A stretch of 64,000 nt of DNA from Myxococcota bacterium (GTDB taxonomy: Bacteria > Myxococcota_C > UBA6777), in the NCBI GenBank assembly GCA_023150835.1, contig JAKLKB010000004.1, positions 1 through 64,000 on the forward strand, read 5' to 3'. Below, piece by piece: positions 1,513 to 58,775 of this stretch. Within the stretch, counting starts at the first letter, position 1; every line of letters begins with the position of its first letter. The notes below the pieces were generated by a model, which ran no database searches, had not been told where the DNA came from, and saw only the letters and a list, made by a program, of their open reading frames with translations. The position numbers and the translations under genes are program-made.

Positions 1513-4029
1513 TCAACGGCGTTTTCGACGCCAAGGGCGCTTTTTGTGTTTGGTCGGATGGCGGGGTTTTTTTGCATTGGAGGAGCCAAGCCCAGATGAA
1601 GGGCGTTTGCCTTTGATCCAAACGCGCTGCTTTTGCCAACGCATCATCGGCCTGCCTTGGGCGCTTTCCCAGACCCAAACAGGCCGCTCTTGTTCGTCCC
1701 AGAAACCTCCAGTACGCGGAGGCTTGGGGATTTTTGCAAGAGAGGCTTGCGGCCCCTTCGGTGGGGTATCATGGATCTCTGTTTCGCGTTCTGCCAAACC
1801 GAACCACACCAAGGCCAACCCCAACCACACCACAAAAATCCCTCCCGCACTCACCCAAAACAGCACCGATGCGGGGGATGTAGGAGTTTTGGGTGCTTTG
1901 GGTGTTTTGGGCGAAGAGAGGGGGGCACGCACAGAACGCGAAGCAGAAGAGGGCGGAGCCTCTGGGCTGATGCGTTCGTGCGATCCAAACGCTGTGGTTC
2001 CGGAACTGGCCGACTGTTGGGCAGAAAGAGATGGCGGCGTGCTTTTTGTGGTGATGACAGGGATTTGTTGATCTCCTTGGCGAGACAAGGGGCGGCGTTC
2101 TGGTTTGCGAAACAACGCCTCCAAAGCCGCCTTTCCATCGAGTCGATCGTGTGCTTCGGCTTGTTCGGGAGATTGTGGGAGAAACAACGGTGGACGTGAA
2201 TCGACGGCCTGCGAAGTGCGAACTTCCCACTCATCCTGCGTTGGCTGAACGTCGAAAACAGCGGTGGGTTGGGCAGCAGCAGAACGATCAACCTCGGATG
2301 CTACGACAGAGGAAGAATGGTTCGCAGGAGTCGCGTCAAAGACTTCGCTTGATGGGGCATAGTTCGCAGAAGTCGCGTCAAAGACTTCGCTCGACGGGGC
2401 GGTGGCTGCGCTATCTTTGGCTGTGGTGGTCCACTCAGAAGGTGTGATCACGACATCGGGAGCGGCGAGCGTCGGCGCAAAAGCCAGCGATTCGGTTCCT
2501 TGTGCAGCGTGCGCAGCAGAATTTCCCCACGCAGCGCGTTGTTCTTTGCGCATCGGCGTATCAAGCGGTGGGTCGGTCTCCGAAGAAAGCGCATCCGCAA
2601 AAGGAGAAACAAAGCCTTGCACCACTGTTTTTTGAGAAAGAGGCAGAGCGGTACCTTGTGCAGAAGTCAAGTCTTCCTTGTTGGCATCCGCGTGTTGCGC
2701 ATCAAAAAAGTCTTGTGGATCGACAGGCGGGCGAAAGGCCGCCATCAAGCTGCGTGTGGGGAGTGGGCGCGTTGGGTCTTGGAAAGACAAGTCCTCGGGA
2801 GGAAAGGCGGATTCATCCACCAACGCCGAGAGCACAGGACTCCCCTTCGGTCGGCCCGTCCCAACAAAGCCGCTCCGAGAGGAGGACAAGCGCTCTCCGC
2901 TTTCGGAGGAGTTTTCGCTGCGTTCAGAGGACGCATCAACAGAGGATAACGCTCCTCCTGAACCGCCCTCATGTTCTTGATGTAGGCCATCCGGGCTTTC
3001 TTTGTGTCGAGGGCGCTCCACAAACGACTGATACAACATCGTCCCCACTGCAAAGCCCTCGCGATCCCCGACAGCCGTTGCATCGCCCATCTCGACAAGG
3101 TGCGCGTGGACTTCTTCGCGCAACGCCTCCAACGGATACGACTCAAACCCCGCAGGATCGACACCAAACTCTAGTAACATCGCCAGCGCCAGCGCACGCG
3201 CAAGCTCATCACAACTCGCGTACCGCTGTTCGGGCATCGTCGACAAACAACGCAACAGCACATACTCTAAAAACTCGGATATATCGGGATTTAAAGAGCG
3301 CGGCGAAGGCGGACCCTCGTGCATTTGTTTGTAAAGCACCACTTGACTATCGCCCCGAAAAGGCAGTCTCCCCGTCAACAACAGAAACAGCAACACCCCC
3401 AAGCTGTAGATATCGGCACGTTGATCAACGTGCTTGCTATCCAAAAACTGCTCTGGAGCCATGTACTTGAGCGTCCCAAGCGAGGCCCCTGTGCGCGTCA
3501 ATCCGTCGTCTTGTTCGTCGATCGCTTTGGCGATCCCAAAGTCCGCAACTTTCGGGATCATCCGCAATCCTTCTTCATGCAGCAAGATATTCGACGGCTT
3601 CAGATCGCGGTGGATCAACGAACAGGCGTGCGCGTGCGACATCGCGTCCAAGATCGCCGACATCAAGTGCCAGATCTCCGTCAGTGGGATGCTTTGGCGC
3701 AAGCGCTTCAATAAGTCCCGCAGATCCTCTCCCACGATCCATTCCATCACGATCGCACAAACGGTCCCATCCGAAAATACATCGTAGACTTGGACGATAT
3801 TGGCGTGGTGTAGCCTCCCTTGATAACGGCCCTCATCCTCAAAACGCGCCCGTACTCGGGCCTCTTCCACAAGGTGAGGCAACAAGACCTTGATCGCCAC
3901 CGTTAAGCCTGTCTGCGTATCGTACCCCCGAAACACCCAAGACATCCCGCCTTTGCCCACAAATGCGTCAAGGCGATAACGGCCCCGTAACACCTTTCCG
4001 ACCAGCGCACGCCCTGACAAGATATCCAT
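1513..4029 (-). CDS. Membrane-anchored Ser/Thr protein kinase
   Basis: This 838-residue protein has an N-terminal Hanks-type kinase domain (about 15-275): glycine loop GKGGMS at 25-30, VAIK with catalytic Lys 47, HRDLKPSN at 140-147, DFG at 163-165, APE at 191-193. A long acidic, Ser/Pro-rich low-complexity linker (about 330-730) follows. One hydrophobic segment of about 25 residues near 740-765 would anchor the protein, and a short basic, Trp-rich tail lies beyond it. The catalytic domain is predicted to be cytoplasmic. The start is preceded by GGAGAAGAGGG. The linker carries near-identical SSEVFDATSANY-type repeats. No sensor domain is recognised, so the signal is unknown. The kinase assignment is firm; substrates cannot be read from the sequence. 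Confidence 0.92.
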   Translation of the reverse strand: MDILSGRALVGKVLRGRYRLDAFVGKGGMSWVFRGYDTQTGLTVAIKVLLPHLVEEARVRARFEDEGRYQGRLHHANIVQVYDVFSDGTVCAIVMEWIVGEDLRDLLKRLRQSIPLTEIWHLMSAILDAMSHAHACSLIHRDLKPSNILLHEEGLRMIPKVADFGIAKAIDEQDDGLTRTGASLGTLKYMAPEQFLDSKHVDQRADIYSLGVLLFLLLTGRLPFRGDSQVVLYKQMHEGPPSPRSLNPDISEFLEYVLLRCLSTMPEQRYASCDELARALALAMLLEFGVDPAGFESYPLEALREEVHAHLVEMGDATAVGDREGFAVGTMLYQSFVERPRHKESPDGLHQEHEGGSGGALSSVDASSERSENSSESGERLSSSRSGFVGTGRPKGSPVLSALVDESAFPPEDLSFQDPTRPLPTRSLMAAFRPPVDPQDFFDAQHADANKEDLTSAQGTALPLSQKTVVQGFVSPFADALSSETDPPLDTPMRKEQRAAWGNSAAHAAQGTESLAFAPTLAAPDVVITPSEWTTTAKDSAATAPSSEVFDATSANYAPSSEVFDATPANHSSSVVASEVDRSAAAQPTAVFDVQPTQDEWEVRTSQAVDSRPPLFLPQSPEQAEAHDRLDGKAALEALFRKPERRPLSRQGDQQIPVITTKSTPPSLSAQQSASSGTTAFGSHERISPEAPPSSASRSVRAPLSSPKTPKAPKTPTSPASVLFWVSAGGIFVVWLGLALVWFGLAERETEIHDTPPKGPQASLAKIPKPPRTGGFWDEQERPVWVWESAQGRPMMRWQKQRVWIKGKRPSSGLGSSNAKKPRHPTKHKKRPWRRKRR

Positions 4030-4900: not shown

Positions 4901-7297
4901 TCAATCAAAGACATCGGGCGCAAGGTACACCATCTGTTCTTCCGAACGCTGGGCCTTCCAAGAGATATTGCGGGTGATATGGCCCTTTTTCACGAGGCGG
5001 ATCTGCACCACTTTTCCTTCAGGAACAAGCAGCGGATAGGGCGTCGTCCCCACCAGCTTTTCGTCCAAAAAAACCGACGCTTCCGACGGGTTTGTCTTGA
5101 TCGATAGCCGGTAGAGTTTGCGCAAGACGACGTGCTGTATCTCGGACTTTTTTGCAATCCACGTATAACTGCGCTCCACAAAGCCATCCCGTTTGAGCAC
5201 CACCGCGATCTCTTGGCCTTGCTTGGCTTGCAAGCGCAGCGGTGTCCGCCCTTTTGAGACGCTACCTTCCAACACCTCGGCACCTTGGGGATTGCTGTTT
5301 AAGAGCAGAGAAAACACAAGCTCTTTGGGGGGTTGAGTCGTTCGCCCAAACAGCCACAGGCCAACCAAAACCAACAGCACAAAAGCCCCAGCCAACGCTC
5401 CAAACATCCGCCATTTGCGCCAATCTGAGGCACGGTCACGCGGCGGTGAGGGATCGCCCAGCAGGGCCTCTAAGCGGTCATTGGATTCGCTTGTGGCGTG
5501 TGGGATCTCAGGGCTTGCAAGCTTCAAAAAAGGCGAAGGAGTCGGTGGATCTTCTGGATGCGAGACCTGCCCCAGATTTGTGTGTGATGGGCTGTTCTTT
5601 GCGTGCGATGGGCCTTTTGGGGCAGAAACAGGCGGCTGATTGCGTGATTGCCACGGAGGCATGGGGGTATTGGAGCCATCTTCGGAATAAGCCAACGCAG
5701 GAGAAGAAGCCGCAGGAAACACACCGCTACCCCGACTTAAAGGAGCATTTGGAGAAGATAACGACGGAAAAGGCGGAAGATTCGTAAGAGAAGGCGAAGA
5801 CATCGCCCCCATCGGCGGTAAAGCCCCAATTGCGGGCATCCCCGTTGAAGAGGGCGAGATCCCGCCCGTCGAGGGATTTGCGATCCGAACGGATGGATCG
5901 CTAAACGGGGCAACCACCGAAACGCGAGCCGCAGCAGAAGGCGACGGCAGAGTCACACGCTGCGGCCCCTCTGATGCGGCAGGTGGCGTCGGCGATGGCG
6001 GCGCAAGCACCGATGGAACCCCCGCTTGCTTTTCACCTGCAAAGAAGGGGCTTTTTTCCGAAGATGGCGGAGCCACCGCAGAGGCCGAAGAAGACGGAGC
6101 CACCGCAGAGGCCGAAGAAGACGGAGCCACCGCAGAGGTCGAAGAAGACGGAGCCGTGGTGTTGGAAGGGGGGCTTCCTGCTGCGATGCCGAAAGACAGC
6201 GTGCTTGGTTCAGAAAGCAAAGAAGAAGACGGGAGAGCGGAGGCAGATGACGGAGAAGCGCGTGGGGTTGTGGAAGATGCAGGAAAGGAGGAAGAAAGAT
6301 CGGCAGCAGGGCGACTTTTTTCTGATGCAAATTCGCCGTCTTGTATGGCATTTTGGAGTGCGGCCAAAAAGCTTTGGCCGTCGGGATAGCGATCTTCTCG
6401 ATTTTTGGAAAGCGCCTTCTCAAGGACAGGTTGGAAACGGACGTCTGCGCCCGAGCAGACGATATCGATACGCGGCACACGTTCTTCGAGGTGCGCCATC
6501 GCGGTCGCCATCGGCGATTCTTTCTTAAAGGGCGGAGAGCCCGTGATCATCTGAAACAAGATCACAGCCAGAGAATACAGATCGCAACGGTGATCGATCT
6601 CTTTGCTGCTGCGGATCTGTTCGGGAGACATATACGTCGGTGTACCGAGCGAATGTCCTGTGACAGTGTGACCTTCGTTGACGTTGTCCATCACTTTGGC
6701 GATCCCAAAGTCCACGACTTTTGGGACGATGCCGCGCTCTGTCTCGGCAAGCAGCAAGTTTCCGGGCTTGAGATCGCGGTGGATCACGCGTTGGCTGTGG
6801 GCGTAGTGCATCCCTTCGAGCAACGGCCCGATAATCGGCATAAACAGATCGGGCGTGGTGGGAAAGGTCTGATTGCGCAGCCATTGCGACAACGTCAAGC
6901 CTTCGACCCAATCCATGACAAAGCCCAAAAGGCCCTGCTCTTCGACGAAATCCAACACGCGCACGATATTCGGATGCTGCAAGCTAAACTGGATCTGCGC
7001 TTCCATCCGAAAGCGATATTGCATCACTTCTTCTTTGACAAGATGGCGAAAGATCAGTTTGATGGCGACGGGCCGGTTGAATTGGACGTGCTTGGCTCGA
7101 TACACATAAGCCATTCCCCCCTTCCCAACAGGGTATTCAAGCTGGTACTTGCCGCACAAGATGATCCCGTGAAGCTGTTCGTCATCAAGGTGCGCCAATG
7201 GCGACTCACCCAAAGAAACAGGACGCCCGCAATGGGGACAAGCCTTTGCTGCATCAGAGTGTTCATTGCCACAATCAGGGCAGCGAATCAGCGCCAT
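4901..7297 (-). CDS. Zinc-ribbon Ser/Thr protein kinase with PEGA domains
   Basis: This 798-residue protein opens with a zinc ribbon (CPDC at 6-9, CPHC at 20-23) followed directly by a Hanks-type kinase domain: GKGGMA at 58-63, Lys 80, HRDLKPGN at 163-170, DFG at 186-188. A long Ala/Pro/Ser linker (about 330-610) contains a 27-bp tandem repeat. One transmembrane helix (about 630-650) is followed by two PEGA domains (about 660-795), whose NPQGAEV and NPSEASVFLDEKLVGTTP motifs are visible. The kinase domain should be cytoplasmic and the PEGA repeats periplasmic. The start at 7297 is chosen because GAGGAG lies six bases before it and the zinc ribbon begins there; the frame is open 43 codons further upstream without support. 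It is divergent from the exported protein gene at 7541. Confidence 0.92.
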   Translation of the reverse strand: MALIRCPDCGNEHSDAAKACPHCGRPVSLGESPLAHLDDEQLHGIILCGKYQLEYPVGKGGMAYVYRAKHVQFNRPVAIKLIFRHLVKEEVMQYRFRMEAQIQFSLQHPNIVRVLDFVEEQGLLGFVMDWVEGLTLSQWLRNQTFPTTPDLFMPIIGPLLEGMHYAHSQRVIHRDLKPGNLLLAETERGIVPKVVDFGIAKVMDNVNEGHTVTGHSLGTPTYMSPEQIRSSKEIDHRCDLYSLAVILFQMITGSPPFKKESPMATAMAHLEERVPRIDIVCSGADVRFQPVLEKALSKNREDRYPDGQSFLAALQNAIQDGEFASEKSRPAADLSSSFPASSTTPRASPSSASALPSSSLLSEPSTLSFGIAAGSPPSNTTAPSSSTSAVAPSSSASAVAPSSSASAVAPPSSEKSPFFAGEKQAGVPSVLAPPSPTPPAASEGPQRVTLPSPSAAARVSVVAPFSDPSVRIANPSTGGISPSSTGMPAIGALPPMGAMSSPSLTNLPPFPSLSSPNAPLSRGSGVFPAASSPALAYSEDGSNTPMPPWQSRNQPPVSAPKGPSHAKNSPSHTNLGQVSHPEDPPTPSPFLKLASPEIPHATSESNDRLEALLGDPSPPRDRASDWRKWRMFGALAGAFVLLVLVGLWLFGRTTQPPKELVFSLLLNSNPQGAEVLEGSVSKGRTPLRLQAKQGQEIAVVLKRDGFVERSYTWIAKKSEIQHVVLRKLYRLSIKTNPSEASVFLDEKLVGTTPYPLLVPEGKVVQIRLVKKGHITRNISWKAQRSEEQMVYLAPDVFD
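6062..6152. repeat. 27-bp in-frame minisatellite
   Basis: At least three copies of a 27-bp unit (GAAGACGGAGCCACCGCAGA and flanks) encode Ser/Ala/Val/Pro nonamers in the linker of the PEGA kinase. Copy number variation would only lengthen the linker. Confidence 0.8.
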
Positions 7298-7540
7298 ACT
7301 CGCTCCTCGAAACAGCTTCTCAAGACATCTCTCCGCTCTGGTTTGGCACCTGCGCGCCCACATTTGGCACTCGGACGGGTCTCTCACCCAACAGCTTGAC
7401 CCCATGCCACCAAGATCATCGCCCAACTCGTTGCTCTAGCAAGAAGCCCCCCCCTTGTCAAGCAACCCGCCCTCCCCCTACGATGGGAAGCCTGATCGCC
7501 TTTCCTTGAGAACCTCGGCCCAAACCACGAGAAGACCTCG

Positions 7541-28809: not shown

Positions 28810-31416
28810 TCAACCTTTGGCAGGAGCAGAGGCGGCTTTGGGATGGCGAGGACGCCAGAGATAGGCGATATAAGATAACGCCAAAAGATCGGTTAGCAAC
28901 TTCCACTCAAAGATCCAACGCACCCACAGCGCCGAACCAAAGAAGTTCAGCAAGAACAGCAGCGCAGGCCACACCAAGCGTCGATCCAGATGCCCCGCAT
29001 AACCGCCGATGGTCAGCGCATACAACAGCGAAGTGATCGCAAATCCCTCGCGTGCAGGAATCCCCAACAGCAGACACCCCCACGGCAACACAAACAAAGC
29101 GGTCCCTAACCCCCACAGCGACACGATGATCGAACGATTTGCTCGATTTTGTAGCATCGCTTTGCGCGAAGACAACGTCGCAACCGCCGTCCACCCAAAA
29201 AAGAGCCCTCCAAAAAGCACAAACGCCCGCGTATCAAACAAAAACAACGGCCCTTGTCGTCCAAACAAACGCCCTCCGCTCTCGCTAAACAAGAACAAAA
29301 AAGGCGAATAGATCGCTGTCAACAACAGAACCAAAAAACTGCGTAAACGCTGCCCGATCTGGATATCGTGGTCCTGCGCAAAACGCTCCAGATGTTCCCA
29401 TCGTTCGGCCTTTTCTTTGCGCTTTTGACGCAGTCTCAACAGTTCCGTCCGTAAAGCCACCGAAGGACTCTCAAGCTGCGCCATCCACATCGCCGCTGCT
29501 TGTTCGTTTTCTCGCCCGATCTCATAGCGCGCCATTGTTTCCCGAAGATCCGCCAAACCAGATTGTGCTTGTAAGTTTTTGTCCCATGCTTTCAACGCTT
29601 GTTGAAAGCCAAACTGCGCCTCCAAAAACAAGCCGTGTACCCTCATCTCATCGGGCTGTTCTTCGCTTGGCAGTGCAACGATCTCTTGCAACAACGCAAG
29701 CCCGATCTGCGCTTCATCGCACAGCACCAAAGAATGACGGTGTTGCAAAAAGTAGGATAGCGCACGGCGCAATTCTTCGACATTAAGATAGCGTTGTTTG
29801 GGATCTTTTTGTGTCGATTTTTTGCAGATCTCGATCAGTTCGCGGGGAATCTCTTTGGAAAAAGCCAACGGCTCGCAGTCATAAGCGCTCAACAACGCTG
29901 CCTCTACGCTGCCTCTTTTGTGCGGTGGCTCGCCCATCACGATCTCGTACAAGATCGCACCCAATAAAAAGATATCTGTGGCTTGGCTTAATTCGTTTGA
30001 GCGCCCCATCACCATCTCAGGAGCCATGTAAAACGGTGTCCCTACGATATCGTTTTCGGGATCTTCTCCATCAGGCAACAGCACCTTCCCCTCTTTCCAC
30101 TCGATCGCAAGTCCCCAGTCCAAGACATACACTTCACCAAAAGGACCGATCATCACATTCGCGGGCTTGAGATCGCGGTGCAAGATCCCCTTGTTGTGGG
30201 CAAAAGCCACCGCATTACACACCTGCACCAATATCCGCAGGTTCCATTCAAGATGATCGCGCCCGTCCTCCCGACGCAATGGATGCTCAGCATCATTCAT
30301 CAACTGGCTCCATGGAACGCCTTCGATCCGCTTCATCACAAAAAACGGAGACGACCGTTGATCGCAACCCAACACGTGGATCGGCACGATATTCGGATGC
30401 TCCAAACGCCCTGTTATTCGAGCTTCGCGCAACAAAGCAAGCTGGTTCTGTGTGGTCGAGCGTTCGGGCCGCAGCCGCTTGAGCGCCACTTCTCGCTGAA
30501 GCGGTACTTGCAACGCGGCTTCGACGATCGCCATCCCACCGAGCCCGATCTGTGTGCCGATCTGTAGATCGGGCGGCTCCACCCTTGGCAACGTATCATC
30601 GCGCTGCGCGATCACTACACGCGGCAAACTATCGAGCGAAACCGCTGCCTCGTCCGCTTCGGACAACCGACGCTGCAACGCACCACGCGCATTGAAACGC
30701 GCCGTTTCGACATCAAAACCGATCTCCTGCCAATGCGCCCTCAACAAACGTACGGTCTCTTCTGGCACTTTCCGCTTTCGGGCCTCGACCGTTTCAACCC
30801 TCGATACCCGCGTCTTCTCCTCACCGCTCTCAGGCCAATCCCCCACCTCATCGGTCTTTTCGGCTGTTGGTACGTCCGTATCCTTGCGCTCACTGTCCAC
30901 CCAGTCGATCACCTCGTCCGTCTTTTCGGGCGGTGACAACATCGTCTCGTCCCCTTCTTTCTCGGACTCATCCTCCAACTCATCTGCCGAGATATCCGCC
31001 GATACATCTGAGGACATATCCGCCGATACATCCGCCTTTTTAGATGGAGACAACATCGTATCGTCCACATCCTTTTCTAACCAATCCTTCGGCACATCAA
31101 CCTGTTCTATCTCAGATAACATCGTCTTATTCAGATCGTCCTCCGCCCCATCCTTCGGCACATCCGCTTTTTCTGGCGGAGACAACATCGTCTTGTTCAA
31201 GCGATTCTCTAACCAAGCCTCTGACGCATCAGCCTTTTCTGACGGAGACAACATCGTCTTGTTCAAGCTATTCTCCGACCAAACCTCTGACGTATCGGCC
31301 TTTCCTAACGGAGACAACATCGTGTCGTCGAGATCTTTCTCTGACCAAGCCTTTGTCTCGTCGGTGTCTTTCACCACTCGCGCATCTTTTTCTTGCAAAC
31401 CCCTCGTCTTATGCAC
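28810..31416 (-). CDS. Ser/Thr protein kinase with 22-residue TMLS repeats and polytopic C-terminus
   Basis: This 868-residue protein has an N-terminal acidic region (1-240) holding TMLS motifs at 32, 54, 76, 98 and 120, exactly 22 residues apart, plus a sixth at 158. The kinase domain (about 275-560) has GLGGMA at 281-286, Lys 303, HRDLKPAN at 403-410 and DWG at 423-425 in place of DFG, as in several bacterial Pkn kinases. A helical stretch and about six transmembrane helices (about 690-855) follow. The start is GTG with AAGGAG seven bases upstream. The repeats look like tandem phospho-acceptor sites, possibly for an FHA partner. It is the first gene of the kinase/GNAT/M20 operon. Confidence 0.92.
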   Translation of the reverse strand: MHKTRGLQEKDARVVKDTDETKAWSEKDLDDTMLSPLGKADTSEVWSENSLNKTMLSPSEKADASEAWLENRLNKTMLSPPEKADVPKDGAEDDLNKTMLSEIEQVDVPKDWLEKDVDDTMLSPSKKADVSADMSSDVSADISADELEDESEKEGDETMLSPPEKTDEVIDWVDSERKDTDVPTAEKTDEVGDWPESGEEKTRVSRVETVEARKRKVPEETVRLLRAHWQEIGFDVETARFNARGALQRRLSEADEAAVSLDSLPRVVIAQRDDTLPRVEPPDLQIGTQIGLGGMAIVEAALQVPLQREVALKRLRPERSTTQNQLALLREARITGRLEHPNIVPIHVLGCDQRSSPFFVMKRIEGVPWSQLMNDAEHPLRREDGRDHLEWNLRILVQVCNAVAFAHNKGILHRDLKPANVMIGPFGEVYVLDWGLAIEWKEGKVLLPDGEDPENDIVGTPFYMAPEMVMGRSNELSQATDIFLLGAILYEIVMGEPPHKRGSVEAALLSAYDCEPLAFSKEIPRELIEICKKSTQKDPKQRYLNVEELRRALSYFLQHRHSLVLCDEAQIGLALLQEIVALPSEEQPDEMRVHGLFLEAQFGFQQALKAWDKNLQAQSGLADLRETMARYEIGRENEQAAAMWMAQLESPSVALRTELLRLRQKRKEKAERWEHLERFAQDHDIQIGQRLRSFLVLLLTAIYSPFLFLFSESGGRLFGRQGPLFLFDTRAFVLFGGLFFGWTAVATLSSRKAMLQNRANRSIIVSLWGLGTALFVLPWGCLLLGIPAREGFAITSLLYALTIGGYAGHLDRRLVWPALLFLLNFFGSALWVRWIFEWKLLTDLLALSYIAYLWRPRHPKAASAPAKG

Positions 31417-47422: not shown

Positions 47423-48004
47423 GTGAAAACATGGATTCCAAGACTCTTGATCTTCGTTGGCGCGGTGGGCCTCGCCTTGGCAGGCCGTGCTTGTATGGTC
47501 GGCTACTTCCCAGAAGGCCCCCAAAACCAAACCCCACAGATCACGCCCCAAGCAGGCAAAACGGCGGAAGAAGCGCCCACAGAACTGCCGCGTCCTTTGT
47601 TACATCTGAGCCAGATCAGCATCGAAGAAGTCGAGATATTGATCAACGCAGATCCCGAATACCGCAAGAAATTAAAAGAAGAACTCACCGCTTTCTTCGG
47701 TCAAATCGGCGTTTTGGAGCTCAAAACTACCGAAGAAAAAATGAAAGATCAACCCGTCGCCATCGTGTTGCGCGTCGAAGTCCAACAAGAAGGCAAAGTC
47801 CTCAAACTCCCACAGATCGAGAAAAAGACCGACGGAGCGCTTGAAGCCGCCATCCGACTGCGCGACACCACCCTGAAGTTTCGCGCAAGCACCGTCCCCA
47901 AAACCTACGTCGAAGCCCGCGTCACCTACCGCGCCAAGATCATCTCTCCCCTCCTGCAAAAACCCACCCGCACAGGTGGCTTCCAAGTGGTCCCCCTGAA
48001 ATAA
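47423..48004 (+). CDS. Membrane-anchored protein, second of the paralogous pair
   Basis: This 193-residue protein parallels the product at 46625: anchor (about 6-24), AGRACMVGYFPEG, and the same domain with ISIEEVEILINADPEYRK. The GTG at 47423 is chosen because it aligns with the first paralog's Met and has GGAG eight bases upstream; the TTG at 47417 is too close to that site. The two proteins differ mainly in the anchor and the linker after it. This suggests the soluble domain is under constraint while the anchor drifts. A 10-bp minisatellite starts at the stop codon. Confidence 0.72.
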   Translation: MKTWIPRLLIFVGAVGLALAGRACMVGYFPEGPQNQTPQITPQAGKTAEEAPTELPRPLLHLSQISIEEVEILINADPEYRKKLKEELTAFFGQIGVLELKTTEEKMKDQPVAIVLRVEVQQEGKVLKLPQIEKKTDGALEAAIRLRDTTLKFRASTVPKTYVEARVTYRAKIISPLLQKPTRTGGFQVVPLK

Positions 48005-48180
48005 TCTTCCGCCATCTTCCGCCATCTTCCGCCATCTTCCGCCATCTTCCGCCATCTTCCGCCATCTTCCGCCATCTTCCGCTATCTTCCGCTATCTTCC
48101 GCCATCTTCCGCCATCTTCCGCCATCTTCCGCCATCTTCCGCCATCTTCCGCCATCTTCCGCTATCTTCCGCTATCTTCT
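48004..48180. repeat. 10-bp tandem repeat array, about 18 units
   Basis: Units of GCCATCTTCC (some GCTATCTTCC) repeat with an exact 10-bp period. The GCT variants occur as pairs 80 bp apart (48081-48100 and 48161-48180), which points to duplication of an eight-unit block. The array begins at the stop codon of the paralog and ends about 135 bp before glnS. Confidence 0.95.
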
Positions 48181-51998: not shown

Positions 51999-52331
51999 TT
52001 AACGAAGTTGCTCCGCTTTCGGATAAGACTCTCCGAGAAAGTCTGCGATCTGACAAGCCAAAGAGAAAGCCACCAACGGACGTTGCGCGATGGGAACGAG
52101 ATAATGGACACGGATCTGGATGCGCCCTGTGCGCGGGACCAAGACCACTTGGTGATGCGAACGAGGGTCTTCGTACACCAACAGCCACGTCTCACGGGTT
52201 TGATCCACAAACCCCGCGTGCAGCAAGCAACGACCGATCCACGAGCAGCTTTCTTCGGACTCACGGGGATGTTCGGGGACACAGCGCCACAATAAAAACT
52301 GCACGCAGCTTGGGTCGCGTTGGATCTGCAT
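51999..52331 (-). CDS. Small protein at the end of the ParA/Roadblock/V4R cluster
   Basis: The 110 residues start MQIQRDPSCVQFLLWRC. A mixed beta/helix fold is suggested by ETWLLVYEDPRSHHQVVLV and LVAFSLACQIADFLGES. The C-terminal helix could be a docking helix. No family is recognised. It lies 89 bp downstream of the V4R gene on the same strand and has no other neighbour in that direction, so it is likely the last gene of the cluster. The ribosome binding site (GAGG at about 14 bases) is weak. Confidence 0.55.
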   Translation of the reverse strand: MQIQRDPSCVQFLLWRCVPEHPRESEESCSWIGRCLLHAGFVDQTRETWLLVYEDPRSHHQVVLVPRTGRIQIRVHYLVPIAQRPLVAFSLACQIADFLGESYPKAEQLR

Positions 52332-52420
52332 GGTGAGTACACAACCTCGATATCTCGTCGGGCACCATGTACAAAAAACCCGTGATTGCGGTATTTCAAG
52401 CGACAAAGTCGTTGGCAACG

Positions 52421-53695
52421 CTACTTTCGGATGCGCTCGACGGCGACTTCGCAGTAGTCGTCGCCTTTGGAGACACAATGCGTTTCTTGGAAGCGCCATT
52501 GTGGGTCGCTGTGGAAAAGCGAGCGATAAAAGGCTTGATCAAACGTTGGTTTTTCGCGCCAAGGAACGCGGTGTGCGAGTTGGACGGCTGCGAGTGTGCC
52601 GCCTTGGTGGAGATAGCAACGGCCCGAAGAAGCGAGGCCATGGCGTGTGACGTGGTAGGTGCTTTCGTAGGTTCCGGGGGTGCGGAGGACAAAGTGTTTG
52701 TCTGGCGCAAAGTCTTGGATGGTCCATTGACCAAACCCAAGAGCTCGACCGATCGCACAGCAGCCGATCAAGATCTCCAACGGATCACCTGTCGGCGCAC
52801 CGACCAAGCCCTCCCATTCGGGTGAACGCAAGATCCCGCCAAAGGTATTGAAGCCGCATTGATGGCCCGCTTCGACAAGAAGCCCCTGCATCACATCAAA
52901 GGATTGGGGAGCGGTGCGTTCGATGTTGTAGAGTGCGTTGTAAGAGATCCCGTTGTAATAAGACGCCAGATGAAGGGTCACGAAAACACCGAAACCTTGG
53001 ACCAATCCGCGTTCGTCGCTGTTGATGGTACCAAGAAAGCTCCGTAGCCCCGTTGTGATGGCGCGGATCTGCTCTTCGTGCTTTCCCGAAAAGCTATCCC
53101 CGAGAAGACGCTGCGTTTCGCGCTTTCCGACAGGCCGAGACGGAGGCATCGGTTGTTTGGCCCCTTCGATCTGAAAGCGGCATTGCGGCGCGCCAAGGCT
53201 GACGCATGTTTCTTCCGCAACATCCAGCGTTCCCATCGGCAGATCAAAGGCGATCTCAGTTGCAGCCACCGCGCACCCCGCCGCAACCGCATCCGCCGTA
53301 TGGCGACGACGGACTTTTTCGCCATATTTTTCTTTCCACGTATAACCGTAATGGAGAAAGTCGCCCGTCGCTAAACCGCCCTGCGCTTGGGTATGCAAGC
53401 GAAGGTTTCCGTGCCCCATCGCGGCAAAGATCAGTTCAGCGACTTTGAGTTTTTCGGCGGGCGTATCTGCCCCTGAGCGCGGGACAAGTTGAGCGAGATA
53501 ATGGTAAAAAGCCTCGTGGGCTGTGCGCGTGCGAAGTGCCATCCCTTCGCGTGTGCCAAGCGCGTCGTCGATGGTTTGATCGAGCCACAAGTTGTAATGG
53601 TGGCAGTGATAGACAACAGGCGTGTCGGCAAAAAAAGCGAACGCATGTTCGGGGAGAACAGAGAAGAGTTCTTCTTTCTTAATTTGTACGGTCAT
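52421..53695 (-). CDS. Double V4R-domain protein
   Basis: The 424-residue protein has two halves, each ending in the V4R-type signature: VSLGAPQCRFQIEG (about 168-181) and CVSKGDDYCEVAVERI (about 407-422). Each half carries a conserved Cys before and after a Gly-containing turn. An HHYNLWLDQTID stretch near 30-45 and a GYTWKEKYGEK stretch lie in the first half. V4R (4-vinyl reductase) domains bind small molecules in XylR/DmpR and BchJ and are homologous to TRAPP subunit Bet3. There is no DNA-binding output here. AAAGG precedes the ATG at 53695. It lies 40 bp downstream of a Roadblock-like gene. Confidence 0.8.
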   Translation of the reverse strand: MTVQIKKEELFSVLPEHAFAFFADTPVVYHCHHYNLWLDQTIDDALGTREGMALRTRTAHEAFYHYLAQLVPRSGADTPAEKLKVAELIFAAMGHGNLRLHTQAQGGLATGDFLHYGYTWKEKYGEKVRRRHTADAVAAGCAVAATEIAFDLPMGTLDVAEETCVSLGAPQCRFQIEGAKQPMPPSRPVGKRETQRLLGDSFSGKHEEQIRAITTGLRSFLGTINSDERGLVQGFGVFVTLHLASYYNGISYNALYNIERTAPQSFDVMQGLLVEAGHQCGFNTFGGILRSPEWEGLVGAPTGDPLEILIGCCAIGRALGFGQWTIQDFAPDKHFVLRTPGTYESTYHVTRHGLASSGRCYLHQGGTLAAVQLAHRVPWREKPTFDQAFYRSLFHSDPQWRFQETHCVSKGDDYCEVAVERIRK

Positions 53696-53735
53696 GAGCT
53701 TACCTTTGTCAGTCCAGTCTGGGCATCGTGTAAGA

Positions 53736-54335
53736 TTAAACGTTGAGTTGATCAATACCGAGGATGTCACAGACCGCTTCTTCGACCTTGGCAAGCGCCT
53801 GTGGGCTGAGCGAAGCGGGAGCTTCGAGATGTTCCATGGGGATGCCTGTGCGCAAAGCAAGACGCATCATCGAGGCATGTGGATCGGGGGCATAACGCTG
53901 TAAGAATTCGAGGATGCGTGCGGCCCGAGGGCTTTGCTCTGCCTCGCCGTCTACACTCGTTTCTTGGAAGCCTTCGAGTTGAAGTTGAAGTGTTTCGCCG
54001 ATGCGCCGCCCAAACAGACGCGCCATCCCGATCGGAAGGCTGGACTCAAAAGCAAAAACAAGCAAGAAATCTTCGCGTAGTTCGCGCAAAAGCAACAGGC
54101 GATCGCTGGATTCAACGGTGATCTGGAGTTCCGAAGACCACGACCCCATCAGACGGAGCGCATCACGGTGGTTGCGCACAAGCTCGCCAAACATCGCGGC
54201 AAGTTCTTCGGAGGCTTCTTGGAGGACAGGAAGGACATAAGAATCAAAGAGCAAGCAGTCAGGCATCGTGATCACAAAAAGGCCTTGGAGCGCGGGGACG
54301 CCTTCGGCTGCTGCGGGAAGATTGAGGATCTGCAT
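53736..54335 (-). CDS. Roadblock/LC7-like protein
   Basis: This 199-residue protein has an N-terminal domain (about 10-125) with the Roadblock/LC7 pattern: GVPALQGLFVITMPDCLLFDSY, a central helix EELAAMFGELVRNHRDAL, then SSELQITVESSDRLLLLREL and DFLLVFAFESSLPIGMARL. A C-terminal helical extension (about 140-199) ends with EAVCDILGIDQ. Bacterial Roadblock proteins regulate small GTPases (MglB) or act as dimeric scaffolds. No Ras-like GTPase gene is nearby. AAGGAG lies about ten bases before the ATG. It is separated by 16 bp from the upstream Roadblock-like gene. Confidence 0.75.
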   Translation of the reverse strand: MQILNLPAAAEGVPALQGLFVITMPDCLLFDSYVLPVLQEASEELAAMFGELVRNHRDALRLMGSWSSELQITVESSDRLLLLRELREDFLLVFAFESSLPIGMARLFGRRIGETLQLQLEGFQETSVDGEAEQSPRAARILEFLQRYAPDPHASMMRLALRTGIPMEHLEAPASLSPQALAKVEEAVCDILGIDQLNV

Positions 54336-54351
54336 CCGTACACTCTCCTTG

Positions 54352-55437
54352 TTAAGCGAAACGGGCGATGGTGTCTTGCAAAGCACCGAGAAAAGGGCAA
54401 AGCGTGATATCTTCGATGGGATCGGGCCGAACAACGCCAAGAGTCATCGGCCCAAGCGGTGTAGTCAACCAAAACAGGCTCAGCGCAAAGTTCGGATCAA
54501 TTTGTAAGCACAGCGAACGCACCGCGAGATGTGCTTGATGTTGTATCGGAAAAGCGGCTGCGATCGATCGGATCTGTGCGTAAAGCATCGGAGCCCAAAG
54601 CAACGCTTCTTCGGGGGCATCGGCTTGTGCCAAAGGGAGTCCTTGTTCGTCGCACAAAAAGGCCATACAAGCCCCTGTGGAAGGCAGCAACCACTCGACA
54701 AAACGCAAGAGAGCCTTCGGCAGATCTTCACTTTCAAGGAATATCGGAGCGTTGCGCTGCGGTGCGGGAGGAGGCATCCAAAGCGGTGCGATCGGAGCAA
54801 GTGGCAAACGCCGAGACACAAAGATATCGTCCTCAACTTGGAGGTTCCAGCGGATCTCGTCAGGTTCGATCGCTTCGAGATCTTCGGCTAGATCGCTGAG
54901 ATAGCCAACAGGTTGGAGCGGTTTGGGTTGTAAGGCGTCAAGGGAGGCAGGTTGCACAACAGCATGGTGCGGTTGATAGGGGGGTGGGGTCTGCTTGATC
55001 TGGCGAAACGGCGCATAATGCGAAGCGATCGATTGCGCACGTTCGAGGGCTTCTTGTTGTTTGTGTTGTTGTATCTTGCTTGAGGAAACAGCCGAAACAG
55101 CGCGGGATGGGGTTTGTGTAGAGAGAGAAACCAAGGAAGCTGCTTGACTGTCGGAAGGCAAGGCAAACGAGAGATCTTCTTGCGAATCAAACGATTCAGC
55201 AGAAACGACCGAAGCGGGCGGAGAATCGGGGAAGCGAGAAGAAAAAGGCGGTGCATAAGACAACACAGGAGGGGCCTGTGTTGTGCGTGTGCGCGTGGGG
55301 GGGTCGGCCTCTTGGAGCAGTTCTTCTTGTACGGGGAGTTGATACAAAGCCTGTTGTGGTCGAGGAGGCGGGACGATCTGCTCAAAAAGAGCGTCAAGGC
55401 GGCTTTGTTCGATCCAGAGGAGTTGAGATTTGATCAT
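54352..55437 (-). CDS. Roadblock/LC7-like protein with long disordered N-terminus
   Basis: This 361-residue protein has an N-terminal 230 residues rich in Pro, Ser and Gln (EELLQEADPP, PSRAVSAVSSSKIQQHK) and a C-terminal domain (about 240-361). Its pattern (ALLRFVEWLLPSTGACMAFL, CDEQGLPLAQADA, AHLAVRSLCLQIDPNFALSL, GPMTLGVVRPD) fits a second Roadblock/LC7-like fold. The ATG at 55437 has GGAG eight bases upstream; an in-frame TTG at 55467 overlaps the ParA stop as TTGA and would give a 371-residue form. It is probably translationally coupled to parA. Confidence 0.65.
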   Translation of the reverse strand: MIKSQLLWIEQSRLDALFEQIVPPPRPQQALYQLPVQEELLQEADPPTRTRTTQAPPVLSYAPPFSSRFPDSPPASVVSAESFDSQEDLSFALPSDSQAASLVSLSTQTPSRAVSAVSSSKIQQHKQQEALERAQSIASHYAPFRQIKQTPPPYQPHHAVVQPASLDALQPKPLQPVGYLSDLAEDLEAIEPDEIRWNLQVEDDIFVSRRLPLAPIAPLWMPPPAPQRNAPIFLESEDLPKALLRFVEWLLPSTGACMAFLCDEQGLPLAQADAPEEALLWAPMLYAQIRSIAAAFPIQHQAHLAVRSLCLQIDPNFALSLFWLTTPLGPMTLGVVRPDPIEDITLCPFLGALQDTIARFA

Positions 55438-55463
55438 CGCGAGATCTCCGACACAAGAGCGTT

Positions 55464-56270
55464 TCAATCCACCAAAGGCATACGCTCGCCGTCATAAGCG
55501 TGTTCCAACAGCGAAAGGCGTTCTTCGAGTTCGATGGCGAGTTGCTCAAAAAGCAAAGCAAGCGGCTGAAAGCCCGAGGGCATCAAGCCAAGCGGCGATC
55601 CGACCGCGCTGGCTTCGAGAAAAGCCTGATCGCGTGGGATCAGCGTACGAAACAGAGATTGCGCGGGGAAGCGCTGACGGATCTCATACAGCGCCGCCGA
55701 AGAGATCGCGCTTTCAGCTTGCCACATTGTGACGATCAATCCGGTCAATGCGAGAGGATAATTTTCGGAGCGCAGCCATTGGATCTGTTCGAGCAGTTGA
55801 GGAAAACAACGCAACGCGAGCGGTTCCGCTTGGAGCGGGGCGACCACATGAGAGCTTACCCGCAACGCAGCGAGAGTCAGTTCGTTTAATCCGGCGGGTG
55901 TGTCGAGCAAACAGAGATCATACTCGTCGCGAGCTTGTTCGAGGACTTGTAGCAGCGCTTGTTGTTGGACGATCACACTACGCCAAAGCGCGGAGTTTTG
56001 CCTTGGCAACATCCCGACAGGCAACAGATGCAAACCCGCTTGGCGCGTGACGATACGTGCTCGATCAAGCGGATGGTTGTGCAAGGTCATGCCCACCAAC
56101 CCCGAAGCGCGCTGGAGCTTGGCAGAAAGCGACGCCCCCAACGAGCCTTGGGCATCCATTTCGATCAACAAAGTACGCCATCCTCGGCGTGCGAACGAAA
56201 AGGCGAGATTGAGGGCAAGAGTCGTTTTGCCATCACCACCTTTTGGACTTGCTACAGCCAACGCTCTCAA
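55464..56270 (-). CDS. ParA/MinD-type ATPase
   Basis: This 268-residue protein has a deviant Walker A KGGDGKTT at 10-17, preceded by RALAVASP. The switch Asp 39 lies in MDAQGSLG and the Walker B region is YDLCLLDTPAG. The start is placed at the TTG 56270 because the sequence then begins exactly like ParA proteins and AGGAAGG lies just upstream. The frame is open to 56312 without a ribosome binding site. Such ATPases position cargo (chromosomes, plasmids, chemoreceptor arrays, carboxysomes) by gradients on the nucleoid or membrane. No ParB gene or parS-like site is seen nearby, which argues against chromosome partitioning. It lies 69 bp downstream of the TPR gene. Confidence 0.88.
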   Translation of the reverse strand: MRALAVASPKGGDGKTTLALNLAFSFARRGWRTLLIEMDAQGSLGASLSAKLQRASGLVGMTLHNHPLDRARIVTRQAGLHLLPVGMLPRQNSALWRSVIVQQQALLQVLEQARDEYDLCLLDTPAGLNELTLAALRVSSHVVAPLQAEPLALRCFPQLLEQIQWLRSENYPLALTGLIVTMWQAESAISSAALYEIRQRFPAQSLFRTLIPRDQAFLEASAVGSPLGLMPSGFQPLALLFEQLAIELEERLSLLEHAYDGERMPLVD

Positions 56271-56339
56271 ATTTTCCTTCCTCTTCTGCTTGGCGAATGA
56301 AAGACCAACCAAAGATCACAAAACAGTGGTCAATCGGAC

Positions 56340-58775
56340 TTAATCGGTAGGGATGCGTTTTCGCAGCCGTTCGACGTTGTAGAGGGTGCGTGGATCGTCT
56401 GGGCGCAGGAGCAAACATTCTTGGAAGAGCTGTAAGGCTTCTTTGTATTGACGCCGCAGGTAGGTCGTCATCGCTTGTCGGAACATCTCTTCAAAGACGT
56501 CTTCTTCGGCGGCTTGAGAAGGTGGTGTTGCAAGGGGTCCACGAAGCTCAGTGGCTTGGCCGATCGAAGGATGGCTTTCGGAGGTCGAGTTTTGCGCGAC
56601 GGGAGGTTCGTGGACTTGGATCTGTACGCTGGAGGAATAGGCTTCGAGGCTGGCGGGGGTAAAGTTTTCTTGGATGGAAGAAGAAGCAGGAGAGGAGATG
56701 GCGGGAGCGGAATCACGGGAAGTGGAGCCTTGGAGATGATGGAGCGTTTGATCCAAGATCGCCGAGAGTGTTGCTTGGGAGATATCCTGTTGTTCGTTTC
56801 CTCCGATGATATCGAGGATCTCGTTGATCATGGAGGCGGGATCTTCTTGCGTGGTTTCGCGTTCGTCACCGTTGAAAAAAGCGAGGCTCGCACGAAGTTC
56901 TGCCGTTAATCGCTCAGCCGCTTGAGAGATGGTCTGATCAGAGATCAGCATCTTCTCAGGTTTTTTTTCGGAAGATAGAGCAAAAGGAGGGGGAGGCGGG
57001 GGAGGCGGCGCAGGAATGAACGGAGAGGACGAAGCAGGGTCAGATTCAGCGACAGAAAGGATCGGAAACTGGCCTGTGAGGGCTTCCGAAGCAAACGTAT
57101 CGTCTCTGGAGTCACTCACAGGCGGAGGCGGGAGTTTTCCTTTTTCGGACTCGTTTGAAGGAGGGAGATCCTTGCGCAAAGCCGAATCAAGGGCACGAAC
57201 GAGGGCTTCGAGCTTTTTTTGGTTTTCGTCTGAGAGAGGCTGTACTGTTTGGGCAGCGGCGAGTTTTGATTGAGAACGGCTTGCACGCCACGAAGCCGAA
57301 GATGGCGCACTTTCAAGAACAGGGGTGAGTCGTTGTTGAGAGTCGTGACGTGAAGGGGCCGCAGCAAGGCGTTGTTGGGAGTCGTGACGTGAAGGGGCCG
57401 CAGCAAGGCGTTGTTGGGAGTCGTGACGTGAAGGGGCCGCAGCAAGGCGTTGTTGGGAGTCGTGACGTGAAGACGAAGGAACAGCGATACCCCGAGAAGC
57501 AGAAGAAGCAGGACGAGCCAAAGGATTTGCTGCGCGAGAAAGCGGCGATGTCGGGAGATTGTTTTTGGCGCTAGAAGGTTTGGCTTGGTGAGCAAGAGCC
57601 ATCGCCAACGCACGCGCAAGCATCTCGTCGGCCTCTTCGGGGGAGGGCATCGTTGCAGCAGAGTTCGTCGGAGTGGTAGAGTTCGTCGTTGCAGCAGAGG
57701 GCATCGGTGCGGAAAAGGGCGTCGGTGCGGCAGAGGGCGTCGGTGCGGCAGAGGGCGTCGGTGCAGCAGGCGATGCAGGTGTAGGGAGTGAACTCGCGCT
57801 GTTTTCTGCGAGTGGATCTCGGGCAGCGGTGGGAAGAATGGCCGTTCGAGGCGAAGAAAGCGGCTCCGACAGAGGAACGAGAGGTTCAGGAGAAGGCACA
57901 GAGAGGACGTCGCGAGAAAAGGGGGGTTGTGTTGTAGGGCGAGAGGTCAAAGAGGGCGAAGGCTGGGTCACGGTCTGCAAGATGGAGGAAGAGGAAGAGA
58001 GAGGCGGCTGAGTAGGCGGTCTATAGGGGGATTCAGCGAGTGAGGATTCGGGTGATTGAGTAGACGAGGCGTCAGAAAATGGCTTAGGTGCGAAAGAAGG
58101 GCGAAGCTCGGCCTCGGAAAATGCGGGAGGAAGTTCGGAGAGAGGGGATATGTGCGTTTTTTTGGGCTGCAAAGCCTGCATGGATGGGAGTTCGGACGGA
58201 GCAAGACGAGTGGGTCCGATCACCGTGGCCCCTTCTTCGTCGAGAGGCGAGACACTCGCCAGCCACTCCGCAGCGGAACGAGAAAGATGAGAAGGAGCCT
58301 TATGTGGGCTCAAAAAGTCGCTGACTTGGCCTCCTTCGGGGGTATCATCGTACTCCATCGGGAGTTCGAGTTCAGAGGCTTGCCAAGAAGCCCCCACTTC
58401 ACGGAGTCCCTTGGTTCGGACGTCTTCAAGGGGCATTACAGGTGGAGGCGTACGCGGGTGAGGATAAGGTGAACGCGGCGCTCCGCCTCGGTAATCGAGA
58501 GGCGGTCGCCGAGCGGGTTCTTCTTCCTGCCAAGGGGGCGAGGACAACGGCTCCTGCCAACGCTCCTCGCTGAGGGGAGGCTTGGGCGGCAACGCATCGA
58601 TGTGTGCAGAAGAACCAAGCTGCTGAAAATAGGCGCGTGCGTGGGGGTTTTCAGGATCGAGTTGAATCACCATCCCCCAGTAATAGAGGGCCTTTTGTTG
58701 CTCTCCTCGGCTTGCAAAGAAGCGTGCTTGGTGGATGTAAGCATCGATTTGGAGTTCTCGCGTTGATCGGCTCAA
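56340..58775 (-). CDS. Large TPR protein with Ser/Pro-rich disordered middle
   Basis: This 811-residue protein has an N-terminal TPR (about 10-50: AYIHQARFFASRGEQQKALYYWGMVIQLDP) and a C-terminal TPR (about 760-805: AMTTYLRRQYKEALQLFQECLLLRPDDP). These are separated by about 650 disordered residues with tandem repeats, four of APSRHDSQQRLAA (39 bp units) and several of TPSAAP. A helical stretch near 610-680 may fold. The start is a TTG at 58775 with a weak ribosome binding site. It is the first gene of the ParA/Roadblock/V4R cluster. Its long, Ala/Ser/Pro-rich middle is the kind of region that could bind several partners at once. Confidence 0.75.
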   Translation of the reverse strand: MSRSTRELQIDAYIHQARFFASRGEQQKALYYWGMVIQLDPENPHARAYFQQLGSSAHIDALPPKPPLSEERWQEPLSSPPWQEEEPARRPPLDYRGGAPRSPYPHPRTPPPVMPLEDVRTKGLREVGASWQASELELPMEYDDTPEGGQVSDFLSPHKAPSHLSRSAAEWLASVSPLDEEGATVIGPTRLAPSELPSMQALQPKKTHISPLSELPPAFSEAELRPSFAPKPFSDASSTQSPESSLAESPYRPPTQPPLSSSSSILQTVTQPSPSLTSRPTTQPPFSRDVLSVPSPEPLVPLSEPLSSPRTAILPTAARDPLAENSASSLPTPASPAAPTPSAAPTPSAAPTPFSAPMPSAATTNSTTPTNSAATMPSPEEADEMLARALAMALAHQAKPSSAKNNLPTSPLSRAANPLARPASSASRGIAVPSSSRHDSQQRLAAAPSRHDSQQRLAAAPSRHDSQQRLAAAPSRHDSQQRLTPVLESAPSSASWRASRSQSKLAAAQTVQPLSDENQKKLEALVRALDSALRKDLPPSNESEKGKLPPPPVSDSRDDTFASEALTGQFPILSVAESDPASSSPFIPAPPPPPPPPFALSSEKKPEKMLISDQTISQAAERLTAELRASLAFFNGDERETTQEDPASMINEILDIIGGNEQQDISQATLSAILDQTLHHLQGSTSRDSAPAISSPASSSIQENFTPASLEAYSSSVQIQVHEPPVAQNSTSESHPSIGQATELRGPLATPPSQAAEEDVFEEMFRQAMTTYLRRQYKEALQLFQECLLLRPDDPRTLYNVERLRKRIPTD
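57330..57480. repeat. 39-bp in-frame minisatellite
   Basis: Three near-identical 39-bp units (GTTGTTGGGAGTCGTGACGT and flanks) and one variant encode the APSRHDSQQRLAA repeats of the TPR protein. Confidence 0.9.

Follow-up and report, generated by a model that had tools for sequence, protein, structure and literature searches.

A conserved gene cassette joining a ParA-class ATPase to two Roadblock proteins and a tandem V4R protein, a possible ligand-responsive signalling module

Roadblock proteins normally control GTPase switches, as MglB does in regulating the GTPase MglA. They were long ago proposed as general NTPase regulators, and to our knowledge the described bacterial examples all work with Ras-like GTPases. 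ParA-type ATPases position protein cargos, including chemoreceptor clusters (PpfA and ParC) and carboxysomes (McdA). The V4R proteins MopR and DmpR are phenol sensors in which one tryptophan touches phenol. Here, a six-gene cassette bringing these families together is described from a 64,000-nucleotide stretch of a Myxococcota genome (the window; contig C87 of G000, a 7.56-Mb draft), where it occupies positions 51999-58775 of the minus strand. No description of a combination of Roadblock, ParA and V4R was found in the open full-text literature, in which subscription journals and preprints are mostly not included.

The cassette encodes, in order, a TPR/disordered protein (gene 1), a ParA-class ATPase, two Roadblock proteins (Roadblock-1 and Roadblock-2), a tandem V4R protein and a small protein (gene 6). 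It resembles the actinobacterial conservons (AGPS, CvnA-D) in being a syntenic operon present in several copies, with an MglB-type Roadblock encoded beside a nucleotide switch and a component for sensing; it differs in that the switch is a ParA-class ATPase and not a Ras-like GTPase, the putative sensor is a tandem V4R protein, and two different Roadblocks are present. No Pfam match to a CvnA-type histidine kinase or a CvnC-type protein was obtained in the window cassette, and one related cassette (L009) has a Ser/Thr protein kinase and a receiver-Hpt-receiver protein instead. The cassette also recalls the MglA-MglB system of Myxococcus and Thermus, which includes MglC: Roadblock-2 has the fold of MglB, and its sequence is detectably similar to that of MglB. 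Unlike that system, the cassette lacks MglA, carries an extra C-terminal helical domain on Roadblock-2, and encodes another, divergent Roadblock whose disordered linker is long. We assign a probability of roughly 0.5 to the reading that the cassette is a signalling module that responds to a ligand, with a ParA-class ATPase instead of a Ras-like GTPase as the nucleotide switch to which the Roadblock pair is coupled.

The layout of the locus agrees with an earlier, sequence-only reading of the window, which had described six same-strand genes with small gaps: six co-directional open reading frames run from 58775 down to 51999. The gene identities proposed there were confirmed by Pfam, profile comparison and predicted folds, and its statements that the cassette holds neither ParB nor a Ras-like GTPase stand. 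Several starts were revised, to ATG 55437 for Roadblock-1, 54335 for Roadblock-2, ATG 53695 for V4R and ATG 52331 (not 52499) for the small protein; ParA probably starts at TTG 56270, within a frame that opens at 56312. With these starts, the intergenic gaps are 69, 26, 16, 40 and 89 bp from gene 1 to gene 6. A scan for promoters and terminators gave nothing exceeding chance.

The distribution of the cassette was examined in about 400 distinct genomes, many of them from small phyla and with well-populated Myxococcota possibly missing; the GTDB phylum of the window genome is represented by 5 genomes in this collection. In a genome of the same genus, a 4.4-kb contig has the order ParA, Roadblock-1, Roadblock-2 and V4R, and the end of gene 1 adjoins ParA. 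Nucleotide differences between the two genomes at codon positions 1/2/3 are 9/2/83 in V4R, 7/2/54 in ParA and 1/3/27 in Roadblock-2, a third-position excess that marks selection on the proteins. The order of the first five genes is also found in genus g3 (G003) at three paralogous loci (L008, L009 and L011); a V4R gene without the other parts also occurs there, close to the end of a contig (L010). A tandem V4R profile run over 386 genomes reached six further genomes, one of which, G352, has the whole cassette (L045). The phylum-wide sets built from G000 (5 genomes) and G352 (8 genomes) are separate, which places the two in different phyla. Co-inheritance of the set is supported by five genes in the same order at four further loci, and the neighbourhood is not confined to a single genome. 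At all four of these loci, the first two genes share 4 bp, and ParA and Roadblock-1 share 26-32 bp.

Neither the tandem V4R protein nor the cassette Roadblocks were found in genus g2 (G002 and G004). A tblastn search for V4R on plasmids gave no match, viral contigs yielded no relative, and a pattern scan of genome contigs with the V4R protein returned the same-genus genome alone. Per-gene trees agree only partly in topology and the G352 copy sits among the G003 paralogues, so that ancient duplication and horizontal transfer are inseparable. For pairwise identities, the two pieces of the L008 ParA were joined end to end, with the sequence left unmended. A DUF4388-like domain suspected by eye in L045:4427-5155 was unconfirmed by Pfam and not used as evidence.

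The tandem V4R protein would be the sensory component of the module. Pfam PF02830 matches its end with an E-value of 8.3e-7 and 29.4 bits, just below the curated cut-off of 31, which is exceeded by the tandem relatives in L046 and L047. Comparison of the two halves by hhalign shows them to be homologous (probability 95%, E 1.8e-8). A PDB search with the whole tandem profile gave zero matches and single-domain profiles were needed; with these, the best matches were MopR for the second domain (E 9e-4) and MJ1460 for the first (E 0.03). When aligned to the zinc ligands of the DmpR V4R domain (PMC7264223), all four positions of the second domain (C ... ExxC x7 C) are kept in 7 of the 8 sequences aligned, and three are present in the first domain. 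By this alignment, the second domain has the zinc-site positions expected of a ligand-sensing V4R, and the possible small-ligand role that had been proposed for this protein is supported. The fold and these positions are shared with MopR, DmpR and PoxR, from which the cassette protein differs in being tandem and unfused to an AAA+ or DNA-binding domain. In two other genomes, the two V4R domains are encoded as separate adjacent genes (L048:6049-7175 and L049:9459-10627).

The V4R domain is also homologous to Bet3, a subunit of TRAPP, the vesicle-tethering complex of eukaryotes (PMC2253512). The sequence-only reading had stated this homology and, together with the relation of Roadblock to longin-type folds, took it to mean that the cassette resembles a TRAPP-like assembly driven or positioned by ParA. 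In such an assembly, V4R and the Roadblocks would form a tether or exchange-factor core. A tandem V4R protein could mimic a Bet3-family dimer, and the Roadblock and longin folds are distantly related (PMC10933270). However, the cassette has no longin subunit and no Rab or other GTPase. Its Roadblocks are of the MglB type, with folds that match MglB/Roadblock proteins and no longins among the best 50 Foldseek matches. The V4R domains are closer to zinc-containing sensors than to TRAPPC3, the mouse version of which has lost the zinc site whose positions are kept here in the second domain (PMC10933270), and V4R also occurs without the other cassette parts (L046 and L047). One of these occurrences, L046:7618-10522 in a third, two-genome phylum, is an apparent operon of an MCP signalling protein, a small protein and a tandem V4R protein, the first two genes of which overlap by 4 bp. 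Given the Roadblock folds, the missing longin and GTPase and the zinc-site positions, the TRAPP-like interpretation was dropped as the leading model and is considered very improbable.

Neither of the two Roadblock proteins matches Pfam Robl_LC7, and Roadblock-1 has no Pfam match of any kind, but predicted structures identify both. The matches listed by Foldseek for the C-terminal domain of Roadblock-1 (best E 2.5e-5) are MglB, Asgard Roadblock, Ragulator/Rag and other Roadblock domains. The Roadblock-2 model has a predicted local distance difference test (pLDDT) score of 79.5, and MglB and other Roadblock proteins are topmost among its matches (best E 7.5e-6). At the level of these models, it is confirmed that the two proteins share the Roadblock fold; together with the V4R results, this removes the concern that the Roadblock-like and V4R proteins might belong to unrelated folds. 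In profile searches, Roadblock-2 reached MglB in the PDB at E 0.0075 and matched genes in 27 other genomes, mostly of mglB size; most of those examined adjoin mglA, and all four scanned carry Robl_LC7. No known relative of the C-terminal helical domain of Roadblock-2 was found.

The MglB-like character of Roadblock-2 brings in a further explanation, that the cassette is an accessory regulator of MglA/MglB polarity in which its Roadblocks act on a free-standing MglA and ParA and V4R modulate this action. The gene mglA is present in 6 of the 6 genomes searched for it. In the window genome, however, it lies on another contig, away from the cassette, and forms a canonical pair with its own mglB (L112:1311-2552, G000 contig C42). 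MglA is therefore not a necessary partner of the cassette Roadblocks, and the cassette cannot simply be equated with the MglA system of this genome. G002 and G004, moreover, have mglA and lack both the tandem V4R protein and the cassette Roadblocks. An accessory role in MglA/MglB polarity is accordingly judged improbable. As a separate observation, two neighbouring genes at L111:3718-7373, roughly 20 kb away from one of the G003 cassettes, encode MglA-like GTPases that continue into long fused C-terminal regions (592 and 584 amino acids).

Pfam matches ParA to AAA_31 (E 3.9e-26) and CbiA (E 6.6e-16), and the closest solved structure is Thermus Soj (1wcv, E 1.6e-27). The Walker A motif KGGDGKTT at 56220-56243 has both the signature lysine and the P-loop lysine, and the Walker A' aspartate (D40) and the Walker B positions are kept, which assigns the protein to the ParA/MinD family.

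The main rival to a signalling module is a positioning system, in which ParA places a large cytoplasmic cluster of V4R, Roadblock and scaffold proteins and Roadblock-1 is the ParA-activating adaptor. Several protein cargos are positioned by ParA-type ATPases, Soj is the closest relative of the cassette ParA, and gene 1 encodes a long, disordered-looking putative scaffold. As in the described positioning systems (PomXYZ, McdAB, PpfA/TlpT and ParC), the neighbour of ParA combines a short N-terminal segment that is conserved with a disordered linker and a dimerising domain, although here that domain is a Roadblock. In every copy, the N-terminus of Roadblock-1 reads M..(K/R)..LxW and continues with acidic and leucine positions, the linker and the Roadblock domain; positions 2-4 hold one basic residue, and positions 12-15 usually hold another. 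ParA activators are typically built from a short, positively charged N-terminus grafted onto an interaction domain (PMC7993993). By analogy with this layout, the N-terminal peptide of Roadblock-1 is a candidate ParA-activating peptide, with fewer charges than usual.

The ParA sequence itself argues against this rival. The two arginines through which Soj binds DNA, R189 and R218 (PMC3778016), are both replaced in 5 of the 5 intact copies aligned: the window ParA has Glu and Ala, and the residues across the aligned copies are E/Q/A/Q and A/Q/A/A. Thermus Soj (1wcv) has the same residues as the Bacillus subtilis Soj used for this alignment. The absence of Soj-type DNA-binding arginines makes nucleoid-based positioning doubtful. 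The conserved acidic C-terminal tail is likewise unlike the amphipathic, basic membrane helix of MinD, and in one paralogue the P-loop Lys is replaced by Arg. The earlier proposal that ParA positions the assembly is weakened by these features, and a positioning system is regarded as unlikely, though it is the alternative to be taken most seriously.

The gene 1 product contains 13.8% Pro and 20% Ser+Thr, and Pfam finds in it a single C-terminal TPR (TPR_1), the remainder being Pro/Ser/Thr-rich and disordered-looking. A TPR module in the last ~55 residues is common to gene 1 of most cassettes and rare elsewhere in the genomes concerned, whereas the region upstream of it varies between cassettes. 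In L009, gene 1 carries this module in fusion with a Ser/Thr protein kinase (Pkinase E 3.5e-54), and the receiver-Hpt-receiver protein is encoded by the gene that follows V4R. A receiver domain suspected by eye at the N-terminus of this kinase was unconfirmed by Pfam and not used as evidence. A short motif, SWQASELELPMEY, has counterparts in two of the G003 cassettes and was not seen in the translations of L009 or L045. Inside the window gene, a 39-bp in-frame tandem repeat (57331-57472, 3.6 copies) encodes repeated SRHDSQQRLAAAP.

From this organisation we infer the signal flow, contacts, ligand and output of a ligand-responsive signalling module. The tandem V4R protein would bind a small, probably hydrophobic ligand, with a zinc ion organising the second domain. 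The ligand state would be relayed to Roadblock-1 and Roadblock-2, which may form either a mixed pair or self-pairs. Roadblock-1 would dock through its N-terminal peptide on the ATP-bound ParA dimer and set ATP hydrolysis, such that ParA would report the ligand state. The gene 1 protein would join the complex through its C-terminal TPR and carry the output, which would differ by copy, being a protein kinase in one and a disordered scaffold in others. In favour of this reading are the conserved gene order with its overlaps, the Roadblock folds and the MglB-like character of Roadblock-2, the zinc-ligand positions, the kinase and receiver-Hpt-receiver genes of L009, the MCP gene beside the tandem V4R gene of L046, the replaced Soj-type arginines and the separate mglA-mglB pair.

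Several observations weigh against a signalling module of this kind. The phenol-contacting Trp of MopR and DmpR is apparently not kept in the tandem V4R protein, and the conserved basic positions of the Roadblock-1 N-terminus, about two in number, are not as many as in known ParA activators. Of the cassettes, L009 alone has the kinase and receiver genes. The ParA of that same cassette (L009:11771-12577) reads KGGVGRTT, with Arg in place of the P-loop Lys, and judging from this motif it may fail to bind ATP in the usual way. In one of the three G003 cassettes, ParA (L008:7837-8639) is split across two overlapping frames, by a frameshift or possibly an assembly error. These two copies suggest that ATP cycling may not matter in every cassette. 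Finally, a GTPase could still be provided in trans by a free-standing mglA.

More tentatively, the cassette may represent an undescribed prokaryotic signalling class, present in at least two phyla, in which Roadblocks govern a ParA-class ATPase, a tandem V4R protein is the sensor and the output domains of the scaffold are swappable. A conserved operon with MglB-type Roadblocks and a ParA-class ATPase makes the idea of Roadblocks as general NTPase regulators directly testable. V4R, a bacterial relative of a TRAPP subunit, also gains defined partners outside transcription factors, and this partner set is relevant to the joining of V4R and Roadblock modules before eukaryotes.

Gene 6 is the weakest member of the set. 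A homologue was found only in L009 (38% over 100 amino acids, E 1.5e-18), 2.6 kb downstream of V4R. The idea of a small protein as a general V4R partner was rejected, as small ORFs (open reading frames) near V4R in L046, L047 and L049 have no relation to gene 6 detectable by hhalign. The coordinates of all cassette features are given in Table 1.

Table 1. Genes, domains and motifs of the cassette, in window coordinates.
Feature	Coordinates	Strand	Details
Gene 1, TPR/disordered scaffold or adaptor	56340..58775	-	811 amino acids
Short motif SWQASELELPMEY in gene 1	58350..58388	-	Read from translations; SWEADESELPLEY in L008, SWEADEDELPLEY in L011
C-terminal TPR module of gene 1	56340..56513	-	About the last 57 residues; alignment and search, Pfam TPR_1 E 2.8e-5
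Gene 2, ParA-class ATPase	55464..56270	-	268 amino acids, from the probable start
Gene 3, Roadblock-1	54352..55437	-	361 amino acids; N-terminal peptide, Pro-rich linker and C-terminal Roadblock domain
N-terminal peptide of Roadblock-1, MIKSQLLWIEQSRLDALFEQI	55375..55437	-	Kept in all copies: basic residue ... LxW(I/D)(E/D)
Roadblock domain of Roadblock-1	54352..54762	-	Alpha-beta-beta-alpha-beta-beta-beta-alpha; predicted, pLDDT 85, predicted template modelling score (pTM) 0.81
Gene 4, Roadblock-2, MglB-like	53736..54335	-	199 amino acids; extra C-terminal helical domain
C-terminal helical domain of Roadblock-2	53736..53933	-	About residues 135-199; well conserved
Gene 5, tandem V4R protein	52421..53695	-	424 amino acids
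First V4R domain	53156..53638	-	HCHHY motif near start; E161-C164-C172 at three of four zinc-ligand positions
Second V4R domain	52421..53023	-	C360, E404, C407 and C415 align with MopR/DmpR zinc ligands
Gene 6, small protein	51999..52331	-	110 amino acids

Two further features of the window lie outside the cassette. At 48004-48179, upstream of a glutaminyl-tRNA synthetase-like open reading frame, there is a tandem array of the 10-bp unit ATCTTCCGCC (17.6 copies, 98% matches). Three Ser/Thr protein kinase genes are also encoded in the window, at 1513-4029, 4901-7426 and 28810-31416.

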